Origin: Armatimonadota bacterium
GTDB taxonomy: Bacteria > Armatimonadota > UBA5829 > DTJY01
Direction of reading: 5' to 3'
DNA: 38,324 bases
Assembly (NCBI GenBank): GCA_025358205.1
Contig: JANYKG010000140.1
Span: 1-38,324 of the forward strand
Shown here in pieces: positions 8,470-31,362 of the stretch. The notes below the pieces were generated by a model. That model made no database searches. It worked only from the letters and a program-made list of their open reading frames with translations, and was not told the origin of the DNA. How positions within the stretch are numbered: the stretch's first letter is position 1; every line of letters begins with the position of its first letter. The translations under genes and the position numbers were made by a program.

Positions 8470-9708
8470 ATGGAAGGACCGAAAGCGATTCTCTTGATAT
8501 GTGACGGCATGGGCGACAGGCCGGTTGCTTCGTTAGGCGGGCGCACCCCCTTGGAGGCTGCGAATACCCCGAACATGGATGCTCTGGCGGCGCAGGGCGT
8601 GTCCGGCCAGATGGACCCGATTGCACCTGGCATACGGGCGGGCAGTGACACTTCTCACCTGTCCATACTCGGCTACGACCCGTACGCGGTTTACACCGGC
8701 AGGGGTCCGTTCGAGGCGGCAGGCATCGGCATGGACGTGCAGAAGGGCGACGTCGCGTTCCGATGCAATTTCTCGACGGTAGACGCCAACCTGGTCATAC
8801 TGGACAGGCGCGCGGGGCGAATCGAAGTCGGGACTGATCAGCTTGCGGCGGCGGTGAACGGCATGAAGATCGAGGACGTGACTGTCTTCTTCAAGGAGTC
8901 CGTTGCTCACCGAGGCGCGCTCGTGCTCCGCGGCCCTGGTTTGGGTGCTGCTGTGACGGACGCCGACCCGCATGAGGTGGGCCTGGGCATCCACGACGCA
9001 CATGCGATTGACGCTTCGGACGCTGCCAGCGCGAAGACCGCCCGCATCGTCAACGTGTTCGTCCGCAAGTCATACGAACTGCTGAAAGATCACCCCGTGA
9101 ACAAGGCTCGCGAGGCCGATGGCAAGGGCGCTGCAAACATCATCCTGCCCAGAGGCGCGGGAGTTGCGCCGCACGTAGATGGCTTCGAGAAGAAGTACGG
9201 ACTGAAGCCTGCGTCGGTAGTGGAAACAGGGCTGATCGCAGGAATCGCGAAGTATCTGGGCATGGACATCATAGAAGTGCCGACCGCGAACGGCGGCCTG
9301 GACTCCGACGTGATGGCGATGGCCGACGCGATGGTGAAGGCGCTTGACGATCACAACTTCATTCTCAGCAACATCAAGGGCGGCGACATTGCAGGTCACG
9401 ACGGTGACGCTGCTGCCAAGGTGAAGTTCGCTGAGCGAGTTGATGCGGTCATCGGCAAGCTGATGAAGAGCGTGGACAAAGAGACGTACATCGTGCTCAC
9501 GGCGGACCACTCGACTCCTATCAGTACGAAAGACCATACCGGTGATCCTGTGGCGATAACCTTCTGGGGGCCGGATGTGCGGGTGGACTCGGTCAAGGCG
9601 TTTGACGAGCGTTCGGTGGTGAGCGGCGGTATTTCCAGGATATCCGGCACAGCGGTGATGCCGATCCTGACCCAGCTCATGAACGTGCAGGAGAAGTTCG
9701 GAGCGTAG
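8470..9708 (+). CDS. apgM: 2,3-bisphosphoglycerate-independent phosphoglycerate mutase, archaeal type
   Basis: The 412-residue protein of the alkaline-phosphatase superfamily interconverts 3- and 2-phosphoglycerate in glycolysis. Visible hallmarks are the metal-binding ICDGMGDRP near the N-terminus, TPLEAANTPNMDALA, the serine motif GSDTSHLSILGYDP with the probable phospho-Ser at residue 59, GRGPFEAAG, KGGDIAGHDGD and TADHSTP. These place it in the ApgM group rather than the longer GpmI group. GGAGGACGAGC precedes ATG, a strong ribosome site. It stands upstream of a GalM-like epimerase, both on the plus strand, separated by a repeat-filled 180 bp. Length is normal for the family. Confidence 0.95.
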   Translation: MEGPKAILLICDGMGDRPVASLGGRTPLEAANTPNMDALAAQGVSGQMDPIAPGIRAGSDTSHLSILGYDPYAVYTGRGPFEAAGIGMDVQKGDVAFRCNFSTVDANLVILDRRAGRIEVGTDQLAAAVNGMKIEDVTVFFKESVAHRGALVLRGPGLGAAVTDADPHEVGLGIHDAHAIDASDAASAKTARIVNVFVRKSYELLKDHPVNKAREADGKGAANIILPRGAGVAPHVDGFEKKYGLKPASVVETGLIAGIAKYLGMDIIEVPTANGGLDSDVMAMADAMVKALDDHNFILSNIKGGDIAGHDGDAAAKVKFAERVDAVIGKLMKSVDKETYIVLTADHSTPISTKDHTGDPVAITFWGPDVRVDSVKAFDERSVVSGGISRISGTAVMPILTQLMNVQEKFGA

Positions 9709-9712
9709 CTGG

Positions 9713-9867
9713 GAAAGCACGAAATTCGAAATCCGAAATTCGAAACAATTCCGAATAACCAATCGGGAAAGCTCCAAACAAGATCACTGGGTTCCGGTGT
9801 TTTGGATGTTTATCTTTTCCGGGTTCACCTTTTGTTTCGAATTTCGTGCTTCGAATTTCGAATTTGA
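9713..9867. repeat. Inverted-repeat element with GAAATTC heptad arms
   Basis: The left arm (9713-9748) has GAAATTC, GAAATCC, GAAATTC, GAAACAA in 7-bp register. The right arm (9832-9867) is its approximate inverse: TTGTTTCGAATTTCG, then further TTCGAATTTCG units. Between the arms lie about 84 bp with no open frame of interest. It fills the gap between apgM and the epimerase gene; nothing else is seen there. Confidence 0.75.
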
Positions 9868-9889
9868 TAGTGAGTAGGAGCAGGTGGCC

Positions 9890-10810
9890 ATGGTAATGGA
9901 TACATATAGACTGAATGACGGTACTTCGTTTTCGATAGCGCCGGGATGGGGGTGCAACATCACGTCCTGGCGGGTGGATGGAGTGGAACTGATGTACTAT
10001 CCCGAGGGGTTCGCGGAGACCGCCGAGCGAATCACGGGGGCAGGCAATCCCATTCTCTTCCCGTCGGTCGGACGAACGTGGGACCGCTCGGTAGCGCCGC
10101 CGATTCGGGGCGATTACAGCGTTTATGGCTCGGACAAGAAGTACTTCATGCCGAACCACGGCACCGTCTTCTTCTGCGACTTCCGCAAGGTCAGCGAGGA
10201 GAAGGGCGAGGACAGGATCACCGCGACATACGAGTTGGTTGTGCCGGAGAAGGTCCGCGAGGAGAACTATCCGTTCGACGTGGGTATGGTGCATAGCTTC
10301 TTGTTGACCCCGACGACCGTCGAACTGAAGGCGACTCTTACGAACAACGGTGATTCGCCCGCGCCGGTGGCATTCGGCTGGCATCCATACTTCCAGATCT
10401 CAAGTGCAGAGCGCGAAGGGGTGGAGGTTCGTGTGCCGTGCGCGAAAGAGGTCGTGCTTGAAGAAGTCACCAACCTTCCGACCGGCGAGTATGTGGACAC
10501 AGACGGCATAATCCCACTGAAGCCCGATGTCTTCTACGACAACGCCTTCGGGTTCACGAACGGCAGTCGGATGTCGCTGATTGACCGCAAGGCCGGGCAT
10601 ACCGTGCATGTGGACTTCGGCGACTGGGCCAAGCTGTTCCTGGTTTACACGCCGGTCGGCACGGATTTTGTATGCATCGAGCCGTGGACCAAGGGCATCG
10701 GGGAGTTCGAGAGCCTGAAGAATGCCGGCTGGGAGAAGACAGATTCGATCCTCGTCCTCCAGCCCGGCGAGAGTGTCACATATGATGCGGTGTTTTCCGT
10801 GGAGAGATGA
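9890..10810 (+). CDS. Aldose 1-epimerase (GalM-like) family protein
   Basis: I use the ATG at 9890 (306 residues) since AGGAG ends 9 nt upstream; an in-frame GTG at 9884 is too close to it. The galactose-mutarotase-like beta-sandwich is recognisable from GNPILFPSVGRTWD, PNHGTVFFCDF, LTNNGDSPAPVAFGWHPYF (catalytic-type His) and DFVCIEPWTKG (general-base-type Glu). Such enzymes interconvert anomers of free sugars or sugar phosphates. The exact sugar cannot be read from sequence. The gene ends at a hairpin made of heptad repeats. Confidence 0.85.
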   Translation: MVMDTYRLNDGTSFSIAPGWGCNITSWRVDGVELMYYPEGFAETAERITGAGNPILFPSVGRTWDRSVAPPIRGDYSVYGSDKKYFMPNHGTVFFCDFRKVSEEKGEDRITATYELVVPEKVREENYPFDVGMVHSFLLTPTTVELKATLTNNGDSPAPVAFGWHPYFQISSAEREGVEVRVPCAKEVVLEEVTNLPTGEYVDTDGIIPLKPDVFYDNAFGFTNGSRMSLIDRKAGHTVHVDFGDWAKLFLVYTPVGTDFVCIEPWTKGIGEFESLKNAGWEKTDSILVLQPGESVTYDAVFSVER

Positions 10811-10927
10811 TGAGTGACGAGTGATGAGTGAGCTATTCGCAGTAGTTCACTCATCACTCAATCACGTATCACGCGTCTTGTGTCAGTCACGGGCATTCCG
10901 AAATCCGAAATCCGCATTCCGAAATGG
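10811..10927. repeat. Heptad hairpin (GTGATGA arms) and GAAATCC tract between convergent genes
   Basis: A perfect 12-bp stem, 10820-10831 with 10847-10858, is built from GTGACGA/GTGATGA units and their inverse; the loop contains CGCAGTAGT. A second tract (10900-10927: GAAATCC, GAAATCC, GCATTCC, GAAATGG) follows. It fills the gap between the ends of the epimerase and DUF4139 genes and could end transcription from both sides. There is no U-tract. Confidence 0.75.
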
Positions 10928-24000: not shown

Positions 24001-24082
24001 TAATCACTAGCGGAACGTACAAGTGGTGACCTATCGTCTCGTAGGGTGGGTCAGCGCTTATGTATTCAGACGGGTGTCATGT

Positions 24083-26071
24083 ATGTCTGTTTCTGAACTA
24101 TTGGGCGGCTCCGGCGTATGGTGCGGGGCCGCTCTCCTATTGTGGTCGGCTGCTTTCTTGGTGGGCGTGTGCCGACGACGGTATTCGGGTCCGATTTTAC
24201 CAACGCTGGTTCTGGCAGGGAACGTATGTCTGTTGCTGGTCGCGTTCGCGGGCGGAACCAGAACCGTCACACTTCCGCTCCCCTGGTTTATTGGCGACGC
24301 GGGCTTCACCTTTGTGATTGACCCGCTGAGCCGTTGGTTCCTCGCCATCATCGGGCTGATCGGCATCCCCGTTACGCTGTTCTCCCCCGGCTATTTGCAA
24401 CACCTTCGTCAGCGCGTATCTCTCGGGTTCGTGTGGGCGGCCCTTGCGCTGCTAATGACCAGCATGGCCGGTGTTGTGCTGTCCGCAAACGCCCTGGTCT
24501 TTCTTGTTGCCTGGGAGGTCATGGCGCTGTCGTCGTTTGCCCTAGTGGCGGCCGATCACGAGCAGCGGGACATCCGGCGCGCGGCGTTCGTCTACCTGGG
24601 CGCGACACGAGCCGGCACGGCGTTCCTGATGACCGGGTTTCTCTGGGTGCATCACCTCACCGGTAGTTGGAGTTTTGCGGATTGGGGTCTTTCGGGCGCG
24701 ACTGCATTGGCGCCTGCGCTGCTCATACTGGTCGGACTGGCCACCAAGGCCGGGTGCTGGCCGTTCCACCTATGGCTGCCGATAGCCCATCCCGCCGCTC
24801 CAGCCCCGGTATCGGCGATCATGAGCGGCGTGATGATCAAGACCGCGATCTACGCGATGGTGCGGCTGTTCATAGTGGGCAACCACATCGCCGTTCCAGC
24901 TATCGGGCCAATTCTGCTGATTCTGGGCGCGATATCCGCATTCTGGGGCGTCATATTCGCTTTGCTGCAGCACGACCTGAAGCGACTTCTGGCCTACCAC
25001 AGCGTCGAGAACATCGGCATCATCCTCATGGGGCTAGGGGTTTCGTTGCTCGGCACACGCTATGGCATTCCTTTCCTGGCTCAGCTCGGTCTGGCGGCAG
25101 CGCTGTTTCATACGCTGAACCACGCTGTTTTCAAGAGCCTGCTCTTCCTGGGAACAGGCGCGATTGACGCACGAACCCACCTGCGCAACGTCGAACAGCT
25201 TGGCGGGCTGATCAGGCGCATGCCGTGGACAGCCGCCGCGTTTATTGTGGGCAGCGCGTCCATCTGCGCATTGCCGCCGTTAAACGGGTTTGCCAGCGAG
25301 TGGCTGCTGTACCAGGGGTTTTTCAACATCGCGAGGAGCGGGCCGACAACCGGCGCGCGATTCGGCGGCCTGCTGCTGATGGGGTGGCTGGCGCTTGTCG
25401 GGGCGTTGGCGATAGCATGTTTTGTGAAGGCTGTTGGCATCGTGTTCCTCGGCGTTCCGAGAAGCCCGCAGGCCGAGAAGGCGCATGAGGCTGGTCCGGG
25501 CATGGTCGGCGCACAGGTGTTGCTGGCTGTGCTCTGCGCTGTTCTCGGGGTAGGCGCGACCAGCGTTCTGATTCCCTTGGGCAAGATCACCGCGCTGATC
25601 GGTGACAGCGGATCGCTTGACGGCGTTTGGACGTTGCCGATTCCGCTTCTTGCCGTTGTGTTGGTTCTCACCATAGGCGCGATTGCCGCGTGGATGCAGC
25701 TACTGGCTCGAACGCGGCCGTCAAGGGTCTTCATCACCTGGGAGTGCGGGTTCGGCGACCTGGGGCCGAGAACGCAGTACACGGCGAGCAGTTTTGCTCA
25801 GCCCATCGCGCGTATTTTTGGGGCGATCTACGGCTATGGAACGCAGATAACTGTTGACGATGGCAAGCGGGGGCACTTCCCGCAGAGCGTGGACGCCGAA
25901 ACGACACACGAGGCGTACCTGGAAACGAAGGTGTACATGCCGTTTCTTCAGGGCGTCCAGCGCGTGGCCAGTGTCTTTCTCATGCGCTTGCAGGCCGGGA
26001 GCGTCCATCAATACTTGTTCTACATGGCCGTGGTGCTGGGATTGTTGATCTGGGTGGGGGTACGCGGATGA
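24083..26071 (+). CDS. HyfB/NuoL-like proton-translocating subunit of hydrogenase-related complex
   Basis: The multi-spanning antiporter-like subunit is about 662 residues. Key residues for proton transfer are present: Glu in LVAWEVMALSSFALV, Lys in VGLATKAGCWPFHLWLPIAHPAAPAPVSAIMSG, and Lys in LLQHDLKRLLAYHSVENIGI. The C-terminus WECGFGDLGPRTQYTASSFAQP and GVQRVASVFLMRLQAGSVHQYLFYM is typical of HyfB/HycC and not of NuoL. The start is uncertain: an in-frame stop at 24008 limits it, GTG 24023 and ATG 24083 are possible, and neither has a good ribosome site. It is the first gene of a six-gene unit and overlaps the next gene by 4 bp. Confidence 0.9.
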   Translation: MSVSELLGGSGVWCGAALLLWSAAFLVGVCRRRYSGPILPTLVLAGNVCLLLVAFAGGTRTVTLPLPWFIGDAGFTFVIDPLSRWFLAIIGLIGIPVTLFSPGYLQHLRQRVSLGFVWAALALLMTSMAGVVLSANALVFLVAWEVMALSSFALVAADHEQRDIRRAAFVYLGATRAGTAFLMTGFLWVHHLTGSWSFADWGLSGATALAPALLILVGLATKAGCWPFHLWLPIAHPAAPAPVSAIMSGVMIKTAIYAMVRLFIVGNHIAVPAIGPILLILGAISAFWGVIFALLQHDLKRLLAYHSVENIGIILMGLGVSLLGTRYGIPFLAQLGLAAALFHTLNHAVFKSLLFLGTGAIDARTHLRNVEQLGGLIRRMPWTAAAFIVGSASICALPPLNGFASEWLLYQGFFNIARSGPTTGARFGGLLLMGWLALVGALAIACFVKAVGIVFLGVPRSPQAEKAHEAGPGMVGAQVLLAVLCAVLGVGATSVLIPLGKITALIGDSGSLDGVWTLPIPLLAVVLVLTIGAIAAWMQLLARTRPSRVFITWECGFGDLGPRTQYTASSFAQPIARIFGAIYGYGTQITVDDGKRGHFPQSVDAETTHEAYLETKVYMPFLQGVQRVASVFLMRLQAGSVHQYLFYMAVVLGLLIWVGVRG

Positions 26072-26994
26072 GCAACACAACGTTTTTCCTGGTAGTTCAG
26101 GCCGTCAACATTCTGCTTGCCCCGCTGCTTCTCGTGGGGATCATCCGCAAGGTGAAGGCGCTCATGCAGAACCGCGTGGGTGCGCCTGTACTCCAGCCGT
26201 TCTACGATCTCGCGAAACTGCTGCGAAAGTCACAGACCGTGAGCAAGAATGCGAGTTGGGTATTCACATGGGCGCCTATTGTCGGGCTGGCGGTCGGGCT
26301 GATCGCTGCAGTTCTGGTTCCGTGGGCCGGTGCGCTTCTGCCTGCAGACTGGGCGGTTGCTACGAATTTCCTCCTGGTGATCTATCTCATGGCGCTCGCG
26401 AAGTTCTTCTCCATGCTTGCCGCGATTGACACCGGTTCCGCGTTCGGCGGACTGGGTGCGAGTCGTGAGGCAACCATCTCGATGTTGGTGGAGCCGACTC
26501 TTATTATCGGTTTGGGTGCGCTGGCATTAGGCACTGGAAGCACCGATCTGCTGACCATCTACTCTGCGCCGATCAACCCGTTCATCGCGGTTCTGGTGGG
26601 CGCGGCGCTGGTCGCGGCGGCGTTGGCTGAGCTTTCTCGAATGCCGGTGGACGATCCGACCACTCACCTGGAACTGACGATGGTACATGAGGCGATGATT
26701 CTCGAATACAGCGGGCGCAGTCTTGCGATCATCGAGTATGCGGTGGCGCTCAGGACGTGCGTCTTCTTCGGACTGGCAGCGCAGACTCTCTTGCACGTAT
26801 GGCCGGGGTACCAGGATATGGCGATGCTCTCGCGCTACCTTGTGAGCCTCGGCACCTTGGCTGTCTTTGGCATAGCGGTGGCGGTAGTAGAAGGCGTGCT
26901 GGTCAAGTTGAGATGGCGGAGCGTACCGAATTTCCTGGCGTTTGCGGCGGTGTTGAGCTTGTTGGCGGCGCTGGTCGCGGCGGCACAGATATGA
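26068..26994 (+). CDS. HyfC/NuoH-like membrane subunit
   Basis: The 308-residue, hydrophobic protein has about eight membrane helices. The NuoH/HycD signature is seen in KVKALMQNRVGAPVLQPFYDLAKLLRK near the N-terminus, then FSMLAAIDTGSAFGGLGASREATISMLVEP, and ELSRMPVDDPTTHLELTMVHEAMILEYSGRSLAIIEY with the conserved acidic residues of the quinone/ion-channel junction region. This subunit joins the membrane arm to the peripheral arm in all complex I and group 4 hydrogenase relatives. ATGA overlap with the preceding gene. Confidence 0.94.
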   Translation: MSNTTFFLVVQAVNILLAPLLLVGIIRKVKALMQNRVGAPVLQPFYDLAKLLRKSQTVSKNASWVFTWAPIVGLAVGLIAAVLVPWAGALLPADWAVATNFLLVIYLMALAKFFSMLAAIDTGSAFGGLGASREATISMLVEPTLIIGLGALALGTGSTDLLTIYSAPINPFIAVLVGAALVAAALAELSRMPVDDPTTHLELTMVHEAMILEYSGRSLAIIEYAVALRTCVFFGLAAQTLLHVWPGYQDMAMLSRYLVSLGTLAVFGIAVAVVEGVLVKLRWRSVPNFLAFAAVLSLLAALVAAAQI

Positions 26995-27016
26995 AGATGA
27001 AAGAAGGCTTTGGGCG

Positions 27017-27661
27017 ATGAACCTATCGCAGACTGATCTATTTGCCGCAGGGGCAGCCGTGGTGGCCGTCTGGATGTGCGGGCTGACACGGGTGAAGACG
27101 CAGCTATGGGGTTTGGTGCTGCAGGCGGCGTTGCTGTCCAGTATCTGCGCTCGGCTTGCCATGGCAGAGCATTACAACCATCTGCTCGTCCTGGCTTCCG
27201 CTATGTTCGTCATCAAAGCTGTCGCCATACCCATCTTTCTCGGGAGGTCGGCTGCAAGCATGGGCATCACTAGCGACCGAGGTGCGAACGTTCACCCAAC
27301 AGTGACGCTCATCATCGGTTGTGGATTGCTCGTGATTGGGTATTTTCTGACGCCGCATTTCGAGGTGCCTGCCATGCTGAACCCCGGGTCCGCCGGTATG
27401 TCGGTCGCGCTCTTGTTCATCGGGATGCTGCTCATGATCACGCGCAGGCTGGCGATAAGTCAGGTGATAGGCTTTCTCACGATGGAAAGCGGAATCTCAC
27501 TCTACAGCCTCACTCAGACGCGCGGGATGCCGCTGCTGCTCGAGATGATAATCGTCTTTGAAGTGCTCATCGGCGTGCTGATCGCGGGACTGGTGATATT
27601 CCGCATCAACCGCAGTTTTGAGCATATTGACGTAACGCACATGAGGGGGTTGCACGATTGA
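27017..27661 (+). CDS. HyfE/NuoK-like membrane subunit
   Basis: The 214-residue protein has six or so membrane helices and matches HyfE. LWGLVLQAALLSSICARLAMAEHYNHLLVLASAMFVIKAVAIPIFLGR is the N-terminal half. The second half, IGMLLMITRRLAISQVIGFLTMESGISLYSLTQTRGMPLLLEMIIVFEVLIG, holds the conserved Glu residues in membrane helices shared with NuoK. It starts 22 bp after hyfC and its TGA overlaps the TTG start of the next gene. Confidence 0.9.
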   Translation: MNLSQTDLFAAGAAVVAVWMCGLTRVKTQLWGLVLQAALLSSICARLAMAEHYNHLLVLASAMFVIKAVAIPIFLGRSAASMGITSDRGANVHPTVTLIIGCGLLVIGYFLTPHFEVPAMLNPGSAGMSVALLFIGMLLMITRRLAISQVIGFLTMESGISLYSLTQTRGMPLLLEMIIVFEVLIGVLIAGLVIFRINRSFEHIDVTHMRGLHD

Positions 27662-29106
27662 ACCCGTTCATACTGATCGCGATTCTACCTCTTGTGATGG
27701 TGTTACTCGGCCTGGTTCCGAGTACCGCGCGCCGTCTGCCGTGGATGAGCGCCGCGCTGATGCTGGTTCAGATTCCGGTTGTCGGCTGGGTATGCTACCC
27801 GATCTTTTCCGGCAGGACGCTCTACTGGGGCGTGCTGGGGATGGACGGCATAGGGGCCGCGTTCACCATTATCACCACCATTGTCTCCGCCGCCGCGATG
27901 GTTCAAGCCGCGCTCGTCATGCCTGCAGAACGCTCGCAAGGGCACAACATAACGGACCGTCGCTTTGGCATGTTCTATACCTTGTCCGGTCTGTTCATGA
28001 TTTCGATGTACGCTGTTCCGCTTGCCAGGCACCTTGGCGTGCTCTGGATTGCTATCGAAGCCACAACGCTGATGTCTGCGCCGCTCATCAACTACCACCA
28101 CAGCCGTGATTCGCTGGAGGCGACGTGGAAGTATCTGCTGCTGTGCAGTGTAGGCATCGCGTTCGCGCTCTTTGGCACGTTGCTGATCTTTGCAGCACAG
28201 CACAACTCCGCAGGTGGTGGGACGATGATGATAAGCGGTTTGATCGCCCACGCGAAGGAAATGGACCCGCGCTTGCTGCGGTTTGGATTCGTCTTCTGCC
28301 TGCTGGGTTATGGGACAAAGGCGGGCATCTTCCCGCTTCACAACTGGCTACCGGATGCCCACAGCGAGGCGCCGTCCACCGCGTCGGCCATGCTCTCGGG
28401 CGCATTGTTGAATTGCGCGCTGGTTGCTATCTGGCGTTTGTCGGGGGTGGTCACGGCGGCAGGGCAGGCGGAGTTGGTCCGCCACCTGCTGGTTCCAGCA
28501 GGGGCGATCACGGTGGTTGCGGCTAGCCTCATGCTGATACGCCAGCACGACCTGAAGCGCATGTTGGCCTATTCCAGCGTGGAGCACGTCGGGCTGCTGA
28601 CACTCGCAATAGGGATCGGTTCGGGGCGGGTGTTCATTCTTCACGCGCTCAACCACAGCATCGTGAAAGTCGCAATGTTCCTGCTCGCGGGTGGGATTCT
28701 GCATTCGTACGGTACCAAGGCGCTGCCGAAGCTGGGCGGTCTGCTCAAGACGATCCCGGTCTGGGGTGTGGCGCTGATGGCGGGAGCATTCGCCGTAGCG
28801 GGCAGTCCGCCGTTTGGCACGTTTATCAGCGAGTGGCTCTTGCTTAGGGACACGTTTGCGGCAGGAGAGACTGCGGCTGCGGTGTCAGTGTTGCTCGGCC
28901 TGACGATTGCCTTCATCGCGATCACGAGGCATATCGGGCGGGTCGTGCTTGGTACGGTGAGAGCGCCGGTAGAGACAACCCCCGTGCGTTCATGGGCGAT
29001 CGTGCCGTCGGCGCTGTTGATCATATCGCTGATTAGCGGGGTTGCACTGGCTCCTCCGGTGATGCGCGTACTGACGATTCTGGTACAGGCAGGAGGCCGG
29101 CGATGA
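27658..29106 (+). CDS. HyfF/NuoN-like proton-translocating subunit
   Basis: The second antiporter-like subunit has 482 residues. The start is a TTG inside the 4-bp overlap TTGA with the previous stop. Pump residues are present: Glu in LWIAIEATTLMSAPLINYHH, Lys in GYGTKAGIFPLHNWLPDAHSEAPSTASAMLSG, Lys in RQHDLKRMLAYSSVEHVGLL, and the later HALNHSIVKVAMFLLAGG. PPFGTFISEWLLLRD is typical of HyfF. Together with HyfB the complex has two proton-channel subunits; no HyfD-like third one is present. Confidence 0.93.
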   Translation: MNPFILIAILPLVMVLLGLVPSTARRLPWMSAALMLVQIPVVGWVCYPIFSGRTLYWGVLGMDGIGAAFTIITTIVSAAAMVQAALVMPAERSQGHNITDRRFGMFYTLSGLFMISMYAVPLARHLGVLWIAIEATTLMSAPLINYHHSRDSLEATWKYLLLCSVGIAFALFGTLLIFAAQHNSAGGGTMMISGLIAHAKEMDPRLLRFGFVFCLLGYGTKAGIFPLHNWLPDAHSEAPSTASAMLSGALLNCALVAIWRLSGVVTAAGQAELVRHLLVPAGAITVVAASLMLIRQHDLKRMLAYSSVEHVGLLTLAIGIGSGRVFILHALNHSIVKVAMFLLAGGILHSYGTKALPKLGGLLKTIPVWGVALMAGAFAVAGSPPFGTFISEWLLLRDTFAAGETAAAVSVLLGLTIAFIAITRHIGRVVLGTVRAPVETTPVRSWAIVPSALLIISLISGVALAPPVMRVLTILVQAGGRR

Positions 29107-30602
29107 TGAATATGTTCAAGCGCGTTGAAGAAACACCATCGGCTTTGGCCCTAACTGTGAAGAACTGGCTGGCGCATCGGGGCAGGCGGTTCGGCCACCT
29201 TACCGCGCGGGCGAACGGCAAAGGGCAATTCGTCATTGAAGCGCTGGCGCTTGATCGGAATACCGGCGGCGGCCTCATCATCACCGCCCCGCTGACTGAA
29301 GGAGAGTTGAAGTATCCTTCGCTGACACCGGAGACCCCGGCTGCCCACTGGGCGGAACGAGCGGTCGGCGATCTCTTCGGAATCCAGGCCACCGGGCACC
29401 CGCGCTGGAAGTCGCTGATACTCCACAGTGACGCCTGGCCGGACGATCCCGCGCCGCTGTCATCGCTGGAGCGTCTGCACAAGGAGCCGTACCCGTTTCT
29501 GGAGGTATCCGGCGAGGGAGTACATGAGATCCCGGTGGGTCCGATACATGCCGGCATCATCGAGCCGGGTCATTTCAGATTCAGTTGCGTCGGGGAGATC
29601 ATCTCGAATCTTGATATTCGGCTGGGCTATCAGCATCGCGGGGTGGAAAAGCGGCTTGCTGAGCTTCCGTGGCAGCAGATGCGCTATCTAGCTGAATCGG
29701 CCGGCAGCGACACCGCAGCCGGTAACGCGCTTGCACATGCGACGGCGATGGAGACCATCCTCGGCATTGAACCGCCGCCGCGCGCTCAGGCATTGCGGAC
29801 GGTTGCGCTTGAACTGGAGCGTTTGGCCAACCATGTCGGCGATCTAGGCGCGCTGTCGGGCGATATCGGTTACAGTGCGTGTGCCGCGTTGTTTCCGCCG
29901 ATGCGGGGAGCTGTCCTGGCACTGGCTCAGTTGCTGACAGGGACGAGGAGACAACGGTACTACATCAAACCGGGAGGAGTGGCGCGCGACTTGGACGACA
30001 CACGGAGAACGGCCCTGGTGCAGGGGCTTGTGGATATCTCGAGACGCCTTGAGGAGCTGATTCCCCTGGTCTTGGAAAACCCTGCAGTCATAGAGCGCAT
30101 GGAGGGTACGGGGCGTTTGAGTCCGACCCTGGCCCGCGACTTCGGAATCGTTGGACCCGCCGCCCGCGCGAGTGGCAGCCACTACGATGCGCGTGAGGTC
30201 TTCGCTCACGGCGTCTATCCGGGCCGTGCGCCCAAGGTCGCCAGCCGCACGACGGGCGATGTGTTGGCAAGGGCGCAGATCAGGGTAGACGAGATTCACG
30301 CAGGTCTGGAATTTCTCACCGAGTTGCTGGACGATCTACCGAAGGGTGCGATCTTCATTGACTGCGATCAGGAGAAGCTGCCGCTGGATGCGGTGGGCGT
30401 GGGGATAGTTGAGGCGTGGCGCGGCGAGCTTATCCACTGGGTCACTACCGACCGCACGGGGGCCATCTCGCGCTACTCCATCAAGGACCCCAGTTTCAAC
30501 AATTGGACAGGGCTGGCCATCGCCGCTCGTGGGAATCTGGTCGCCGATTTCCCCTTGTGCAACAAGAGCTTCAACCTGTCGTACAGCGGAAACGATCTCT
30601 AG
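29103..30602 (+). CDS. HyfG/HycE-like (NuoCD-fused) large subunit lacking all [NiFe] cysteines
   Basis: The 499-residue protein fuses a NuoC-like domain (residues 1 to about 150; HWAERAVGDLFGIQATGHPRW) with a NuoD/hydrogenase large-subunit domain (PVGPIHAGIIEPGHFRF; RLGYQHRGVEKRLAEL; ALELERLANHVGDLGAL). Where HycE has the C-G-x-C motif, this protein reads AESAGSDTAAGNALAHA (about residues 198-212). Where HycE has D-P-C-x-x-C, it ends NLSYSGNDL. No ligand Cys remains, so a [NiFe] centre cannot be built. The frame is intact and well conserved elsewhere, so this is not decay. The ATGA overlap with hyfF couples translation. Best described as an Ehr-type subunit; its chemistry is unknown. Confidence 0.93.
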   Translation: MMNMFKRVEETPSALALTVKNWLAHRGRRFGHLTARANGKGQFVIEALALDRNTGGGLIITAPLTEGELKYPSLTPETPAAHWAERAVGDLFGIQATGHPRWKSLILHSDAWPDDPAPLSSLERLHKEPYPFLEVSGEGVHEIPVGPIHAGIIEPGHFRFSCVGEIISNLDIRLGYQHRGVEKRLAELPWQQMRYLAESAGSDTAAGNALAHATAMETILGIEPPPRAQALRTVALELERLANHVGDLGALSGDIGYSACAALFPPMRGAVLALAQLLTGTRRQRYYIKPGGVARDLDDTRRTALVQGLVDISRRLEELIPLVLENPAVIERMEGTGRLSPTLARDFGIVGPAARASGSHYDAREVFAHGVYPGRAPKVASRTTGDVLARAQIRVDEIHAGLEFLTELLDDLPKGAIFIDCDQEKLPLDAVGVGIVEAWRGELIHWVTTDRTGAISRYSIKDPSFNNWTGLAIAARGNLVADFPLCNKSFNLSYSGNDL

Positions 30603-30615
30603 AGGAAGATATGCC

Positions 30616-31362
30616 ATGAACAATCCGTTGCTCTCCATAATCAAAACAGGCATCATCACTCAGAAGGATTTGTTTCCTGATCTGACTGATGACGCTATCG
30701 GATTGCCTTCACTCACATCCACGCCTTGCAGGAGCGCTGACTGCATGAAGTGCGTTAGCGCATGCCCGACGCGCGCAATCACGGTTGACGATGACCTGGT
30801 GACGCTTGATCGCGGGAGTTGTCTTGGCTGCAATCAGTGTGTGGCGGCCTGTCCATCAGGAACCATAGTAGCGGATCGTTCGACGAAAACAGCGGTTCGG
30901 ACGCGTAAGGAGTTGGTAATCAGCAATCAAGTTAAGCCGGTCACAACATCTGCTCCGACCAAGCTGCCGTTCCAGCGGTCTCTCCACGTGCGCGAGGTGG
31001 CGACGGGCGACAACGCGTGTGATCTGGAGGTGATCGCCTCCACAAACGCTATCTTTGATATCGCGCGATTCGGCATCCACTTTGTCGCATCGCCCAGGTT
31101 TGCGGATGCGCTGCTTCTCACGGGGCCGGTTGGACGAGCTATGCAGGAGCCGCTGCGCCGCTGTTATGACGCGATGGCGGAACCTCGGCTAGTGATCGCA
31201 GCGGGTGTGAGCGCGATCAGCGGGGGCCTGCATGGAGGTGGTTATGCTGAGGCAAACGGCGTGGACAGCATCTTGCCGGTTTCCGCCTACATTCCGGGTG
31301 ATCCGCCTCATCCCTGGAGCATAATCCACGGTCTCATGCTTGCCATGGGGCGCTTGGAATGA
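30616..31362 (+). CDS. Ferredoxin-NuoB/HyfI fusion subunit with incomplete N2 cluster site
   Basis: The start is ATG 30616 (248 residues) with AGAGGAAG 7 nt upstream. Residues 38-80 form a two-[4Fe-4S] ferredoxin: C38-x4-C43-x2-C46-x3-C50-P and C69-x2-C72-x2-C75-x3-C79-P; the first spacing is longer than usual. Residues from about 115 are HycG/NuoB-like: DLEVIASTNAIFDIARFGIHFVASPRFADALLLTGPVGRAMQEPL, ISGGLHGGGY and SILPVSAYIPGDPPHPW. Of the four N2-cluster ligands only C135 remains; the others are D132, S199 and D229. HyfH and HyfI functions are thus combined in one chain, but the proximal cluster is probably absent. Last gene of the complex. Confidence 0.9.
   Translation: MNNPLLSIIKTGIITQKDLFPDLTDDAIGLPSLTSTPCRSADCMKCVSACPTRAITVDDDLVTLDRGSCLGCNQCVAACPSGTIVADRSTKTAVRTRKELVISNQVKPVTTSAPTKLPFQRSLHVREVATGDNACDLEVIASTNAIFDIARFGIHFVASPRFADALLLTGPVGRAMQEPLRRCYDAMAEPRLVIAAGVSAISGGLHGGGYAEANGVDSILPVSAYIPGDPPHPWSIIHGLMLAMGRLE

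Follow-up and report, generated by a model that had tools for sequence, protein, structure and literature searches.

The window, a stretch of 38,324 nucleotides from an Armatimonadota bacterium (positions 1 to 38,324 of contig JANYKG010000140.1, assembly GCA_025358205.1), contains a six-gene operon on the + strand at 24023-31362. The genes mostly overlap, lie in the order A-B-C-D-L-S and were assigned from their open reading frames and from Pfam and NCBIfam matches:

24023..26071, + strand: EhrA, a HyfB-like antiporter-type membrane subunit (NCBIfam hydrogenase 4 subunit B, E 1e-169)
26068..26994, + strand: EhrB, a HyfC (NuoH-like) membrane anchor with E-channel residues (Pfam NADHdh, E 1e-35)
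27017..27661, + strand: EhrC, a HyfE-like (NuoK-related) membrane subunit (NCBIfam hydrogenase 4 membrane subunit, E 1e-15)
27658..29106, + strand: EhrD, a HyfF-like antiporter-type membrane subunit (NCBIfam hydrogenase 4 subunit F, E 2e-100)
29103..30602, + strand: EhrL, a fused NuoC/NuoD-type (HycE-like) large subunit without NiFe ligands
30616..31362, + strand: EhrS, a ferredoxin domain (residues ~30-90) fused to a NuoB/HycG domain (~112-248); last gene of the operon

The operon encodes an Ehr complex (energy-converting/Ech hydrogenase-related), which belongs to the complex I superfamily. It combines two antiporter-type subunits with HyfC, HyfE, L and S in the order A-B-C-D-L-S, and its large subunit is homologous to that of group 4 hydrogenases and carries no NiFe CxxC motifs. 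No family model specific for Ehr was among the known family models matched. Ehr complexes were reportedly named in Geobacter by Coppi in 2005 and are said to have been surveyed by Marreiros in 2013. The ehrABCDLS genes are described as encoding a group 4 hydrogenase relative that lacks NiFe ligands and has no assigned function (PMC10284858, PMC10432482, PMC6349859, PMC6688271, PMC7894505), with pH homeostasis suggested as one role (PMC6688271). When 84,980 species genomes were searched using an alignment of the closest orthologues, hundreds of relatives were recovered, and the best 80 were retained. Nearly all complete loci among these have the order A-B-C-D-L-S, a side group (L036, L045, L070, L101 and L108) places A after S, and all full loci of the clade that includes the window contain the same six genes.

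The small subunit is a fusion of a 2[4Fe-4S] ferredoxin with a NuoB/HycG-type domain, the latter matching Pfam Oxidored_q6 well over the cut-off. Its reading frame begins with ATG at 30616, ends with a stop at 31362 and encodes 248 amino acids. An earlier note on this DNA had read the four ligand positions of the N2 (proximal) [4Fe-4S] cluster as D132, C135, S199 and D229, and this readout was reproduced from the translated frame, from the motif positions (GDNAC beginning at residue 131, VSAISGG at 198 and IPGDPP at 226) and from phmmer alignments to HycG (7z0s_G, E 1.6e-27), MbhJ and NuoB, in which the four residues fall on or beside the ligand columns. Placing D132 against HycG requires a one-residue gap just upstream. 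A cysteine occupies the same column in the close orthologues L150 and L151, which supports D132 as the first ligand position and rules out the reading, suggested by L019, that D132 merely precedes a deleted ligand. The relevant features of EhrS, with their states in the 13-member window clade, are as follows:

30727..30852, + strand: eight ferredoxin cysteines (C38, C43, C46, C50, C69, C72, C75 and C79), invariant in 13/13
31009..31020, + strand: former ligands 1 and 2 (D132-N-A-C135); position 132 is D in 11/13 and C in 2/13, position 135 is T, S or A in 12/13
31210..31212, + strand: former ligand 3 (S199); S in 6, Q in 3, A in 2 and C in 2
31300..31302, + strand: former ligand 4 (D229); D in 4, N in 3, H in 2, C in 2, S in 1 and G in 1

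As judged from these residues, a Cys4 proximal cluster cannot form in the window EhrS, and both ferredoxin clusters are predicted to be able to form. The ligands in question are common in Ehr relatives and lie outside the published definition of Ehr as read. Conservation of Asp/Ser/Asp across orthologues, which the earlier note had put forward as a check, is not borne out: only D132 is nearly kept, and close orthologues variously carry Ala, Gly, Gln, Asn, Thr or His at the other positions, so these residues were rejected as conserved substitute ligands. Within the clade, C135 is found in the window sequence only. Nor do other cysteines appear to rebuild the site, since no NuoB-domain cysteine is conserved throughout the clade, and the one candidate, C183, is Thr in 3/13 members. 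A second, intact NuoB serving the operon was also considered and rejected; the sole other Oxidored_q6 protein of the genome is of the complex I type and is encoded on another contig.

The loss is shared with other genomes of the same phylum and is thus not an artefact of one assembly. All four N2 cysteines are kept in 73 of the 93 small subunits compared. The window clade, which consists of members of the window's own phylum and one unplaced MAG, departs from this pattern: 11 of its 13 members have at most one ligand cysteine, and the remaining two, L150 and L151, have three, with only the second ligand replaced, by Thr. The persistence of three cysteines in these two members indicates that loss was stepwise. 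A single origin of the ten near-total losers was rejected on a tree of five subunits from which the ligand columns had been left out (AU p 0.0024), implying that near-total loss occurred at least twice inside the clade, unless cysteines were regained. Orthologues with a full cysteine set, which the earlier note had regarded as evidence against its reading, do exist at ~35-45% identity; what they demonstrate is a derived loss, and they do not speak against the loss itself.

Across all Ehr complexes, the tree requires at least 7 changes of ligand state, all forced by well supported branches. The other lineages without the ligand set are L049, L073, L097, L101/L108 and L104/L110. Most of these are single metagenome assemblies, each with several in-frame substitutions, and L108 is a cultured strain, Aciditerrimonas ferrireducens. 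L101, L104, L108 and L110 also lack some ferredoxin cysteines, so the pattern of the window clade is not the only one. NiFe ligands are absent from nearly all Ehr complexes, most of which keep four N2 cysteines, and this distribution indicates that the NiFe site was lost first and the N2 centre later, as separate events. The earlier note was thus correct that both sites are absent in the window, although not that they were lost together. Other combinations of sites were observed. A Chloroflexi MAG (L097; small subunit 10046-10885, large subunit 8500-9981) retains intact CGAC and CYSC motifs with D, C, E and D at the proximal ligand positions, an apparent hydrogenase without a proximal cluster. 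The reverse pattern, with four N2 cysteines kept and most first-cluster ferredoxin ligands gone, occurs in L019/L152 (G095), and an Acidobacteriota/Verrucomicrobiota branch (L046, L053, L067, L071, L072, L079, L082, L090 and L100) likewise keeps N2 and lacks most ligands of ferredoxin cluster 1.

The protein around the vacated site appears to have been maintained. An AlphaFold2 model of EhrS (pLDDT 90.9) matches HycG (7z0s_G; Foldseek rmsd 1.3 over 131 columns; VIA Z 15.9) and that of EhrL (pLDDT 89.0) matches HycE (7z0s_E) with a query-normalised TM of 0.91, which predicts an intact fold around the empty site. For EhrS, dN is ~0.27 and dS is at least 1.3 or saturated, values similar to those of its operon mates, and dN is well below dS in all six genes. 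Several NuoB-domain residues are fixed specifically in the clade (T130, D136, N144, A175, P179 and H238), with W234 also invariant in A1. In the membrane arm, conservation within the clade extends to EhrA E165, K242, K273, K371 and E426 (11/11 rows), EhrB R133, E142, E188, R191, H200, E202, H207 and E208 (12/12), EhrC E176 (12/12; E157 is E or D) and EhrD E134, K221, R260, K337 and E392 (12/12). Taken together, the sequence comparisons indicate that the EhrS fold, the large-subunit cavity and the membrane-arm charge path are kept under purifying selection.

In EhrL, all four NiFe cysteines are absent, and AGSDT and LSYSGND replace CGIC and CYSC. Most Ehr large subunits instead carry AGDTTxGH and CNKSFNLSYCGHDL, a conserved motif pair hinting at an unassigned active site. 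The cavity residues H149, E154, H157, R179 (of HRGVE), D203, N487-K488-S489-F490, Y494 and D498 are present in 12/12 clade members. The clade has N208 and mostly S495, as opposed to H and C in its relatives, and these changes extend to the three-cysteine members, which places them before the cysteines were fully lost. A rule tying N2 loss to such cavity changes was discarded, because GDT..H and SYCG persist in L049 and L073 although N2 is gone, so there is no tight link between the two.

Ehr complexes as such are already known, as is Pyrococcus MBS as a case of a three-cysteine proximal cluster. The window complex shares with other Ehr complexes its six subunits, their order, the fused ferredoxin-NuoB subunit and the absence of NiFe ligands (PMC6688271, PMC10284858, PMC7894505), but these mostly have four N2 cysteines, whereas members of the window clade have none, one or three. 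The closest solved folds, HycG and HycE, belong to E. coli formate hydrogenlyase (FHL)/hydrogenase-4, a group 4a NiFe enzyme; unlike the window complex, FHL has the NiFe site, the proximal cluster and separate HycF, HycB and FdhF subunits. Besides the missing NiFe cysteines, HypD was not found in the window genome (G000; 4.08 Mb, 97% complete), and respiratory complex I, with its N2 cluster beside a quinone site bearing a His/Tyr pair, differs both in its N2 ligands and in the quinone-site His loop of NuoD, HPSTHG, which aligns with HAGIIEP. The Mrp Na+/H+ antiporter exchanges ions through NuoL/N-type subunits and has no redox centre. It lacks ferredoxin, NuoB and NuoCD subunits, and the window complex is not a member of that family. 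In Pyrococcus MBS/MBX, a complex I relative, the proximal cluster is altered to three cysteines and the NiFe cysteines are partly lost (PMC7684303). L150 and L151 resemble MBS/MBX in their three proximal cysteines; MBS, however, retains a catalytic cluster, and the window EhrS lacks the ligand set.

The absence of the four-cysteine cluster would break normal electron delivery to the large subunit, and with this wire cut an ordinary ferredoxin-driven pump could not run. The individual relay steps of E. coli FHL are each under 14 Å (PMC9474812), so skipping one would leave a long gap; by analogy with homologous structures, on which this distance argument rests, the gap between the ferredoxin clusters and the cavity is probably too long. 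The contention of the earlier note that electrons have no ordinary path to the large subunit is thereby supported, as a normal [4Fe-4S] cluster cannot be bound and Asp/Ser/Asp provides no replacement site. In Yarrowia, complex I without N2 is natively assembled and has no quinone reductase activity (PMC8042128). Our favoured, still tentative, reading is that the complex is a redox-decoupled ion translocator. Electrons would enter the ferredoxin domain and be unable to tunnel to the EhrL cavity, and ion pumping would no longer be driven by redox chemistry there. The complex would then probably work as an Mrp-like H+/cation exchanger or a controlled conduit for ions, and its ferredoxin domain may be a redox-sensing or structural gate and not a wire. 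An ion device of this kind is consistent with the invariance of the membrane charge path and of the cavity. The eight invariant ferredoxin cysteines argue that redox input is still used for something and that electron traffic still matters, and the strong conservation of the cavity could mean that it is still doing chemistry.

Those ferredoxin cysteines would also suit a complex that is still a redox enzyme, with electrons leaving at or near the ferredoxin domain, either to an unlinked docking partner or to a small substrate or carrier reduced in the vacated N2 pocket by the nearer ferredoxin cluster, and with ion pumping coupled there. The pocket can become a substrate site, as the three-cysteine proximal cluster of MBS is itself catalytic (PMC7684303), the residues fixed in the clade's NuoB domain are compatible with a remodelled site, and the genome encodes pyruvate:ferredoxin-type oxidoreductases. 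We nevertheless consider this somewhat unlikely, given that no partner gene is linked to any clade locus examined and that the EhrL cavity would have less reason to be so conserved. Retention of a metal centre at the N2 site on other ligands (Asp, Asn, His or Ser with one Cys), or occupation of the site by another cofactor, is improbable, even though five lineages have Asp at ligand 1 (the window clade, L073, L097, L101/L108 and L104/L110), acidic residues recur at ligand 3 and the neighbouring HRGVE arginine R179 is kept in 12/12. Positions 135, 199 and 229 change freely, even to Ala, Gly and Gln (D/A/A/G in L143 and D/T/A/S in L145), C183 does not persist clade-wide and no other NuoB-domain cysteine does, and the retained Asp and Arg may merely pair by charge. 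The piecemeal loss of redox centres in several Ehr lineages might instead indicate a complex that is decaying or that assembles only as a structural relic. This is very improbable: even in distant families of the phylum the frames are open and the gene order is intact, dN is low relative to dS in all six genes, the charge path and cavity are nearly invariant, and nine clade loci share an ArsR-type regulator upstream. Conservation of both pump and cavity favours the ion translocator over electron exit, a non-cysteine centre and decay alike.

The main unsolved problem of complex I is how redox chemistry at N2 and the quinone cavity drives a membrane arm so far away. Complexes found in nature that keep the cavity and the charge path and have lost the last cluster several times independently provide a natural experiment on which coupling elements depend on electrons, and they set limits on what Ehr complexes, which are widespread and unassigned, might do. 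It is possible, at slightly lower confidence than the favoured reading of the window complex, that they form a class of complex I relatives that repeatedly discarded the proximal cluster and kept pump and cavity, with translocation driven or gated by something other than electrons delivered to the cavity. The open papers searched contained no description of N2-less Ehr complexes or of repeated loss of the whole ligand set, a search that did not extend to the 2013 Ehr survey, so that prior notice is possible.

The window genome encodes complex I and several pyruvate:ferredoxin-type oxidoreductases, and a haem-copper oxidase was not found in it; this gene content, together with the missing HypD, suggests an anaerobe that produces reduced ferredoxin but has no means of maturing a NiFe site. 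A haem-copper oxidase is present in most other clade members, and HypD in many of them; the loss is therefore not confined to a single lifestyle. In one further genome (G169; 2.3 Mb, 92% complete), which has a haem-copper oxidase, the Ehr large subunit is the sole Complex1_49kDa protein and an ordinary complex I was not found. Clustering of neighbouring genes revealed no linked redox enzyme within 4 kb of the clade loci examined, only regulators, which would fit a stress or ion role without proving one. In nine clade loci (L033, L143-L146 and L148-L151) the gene immediately preceding the operon encodes an ArsR-family regulator, and an HTH_17-PTS_EIIA_2 fusion, neither gene having been found beside the window's own operon, directly precedes ehrA in ~30 other Ehr loci, often with overlapping or abutting ends (e.g., L061:1035-1739 and L086:2686-3354).
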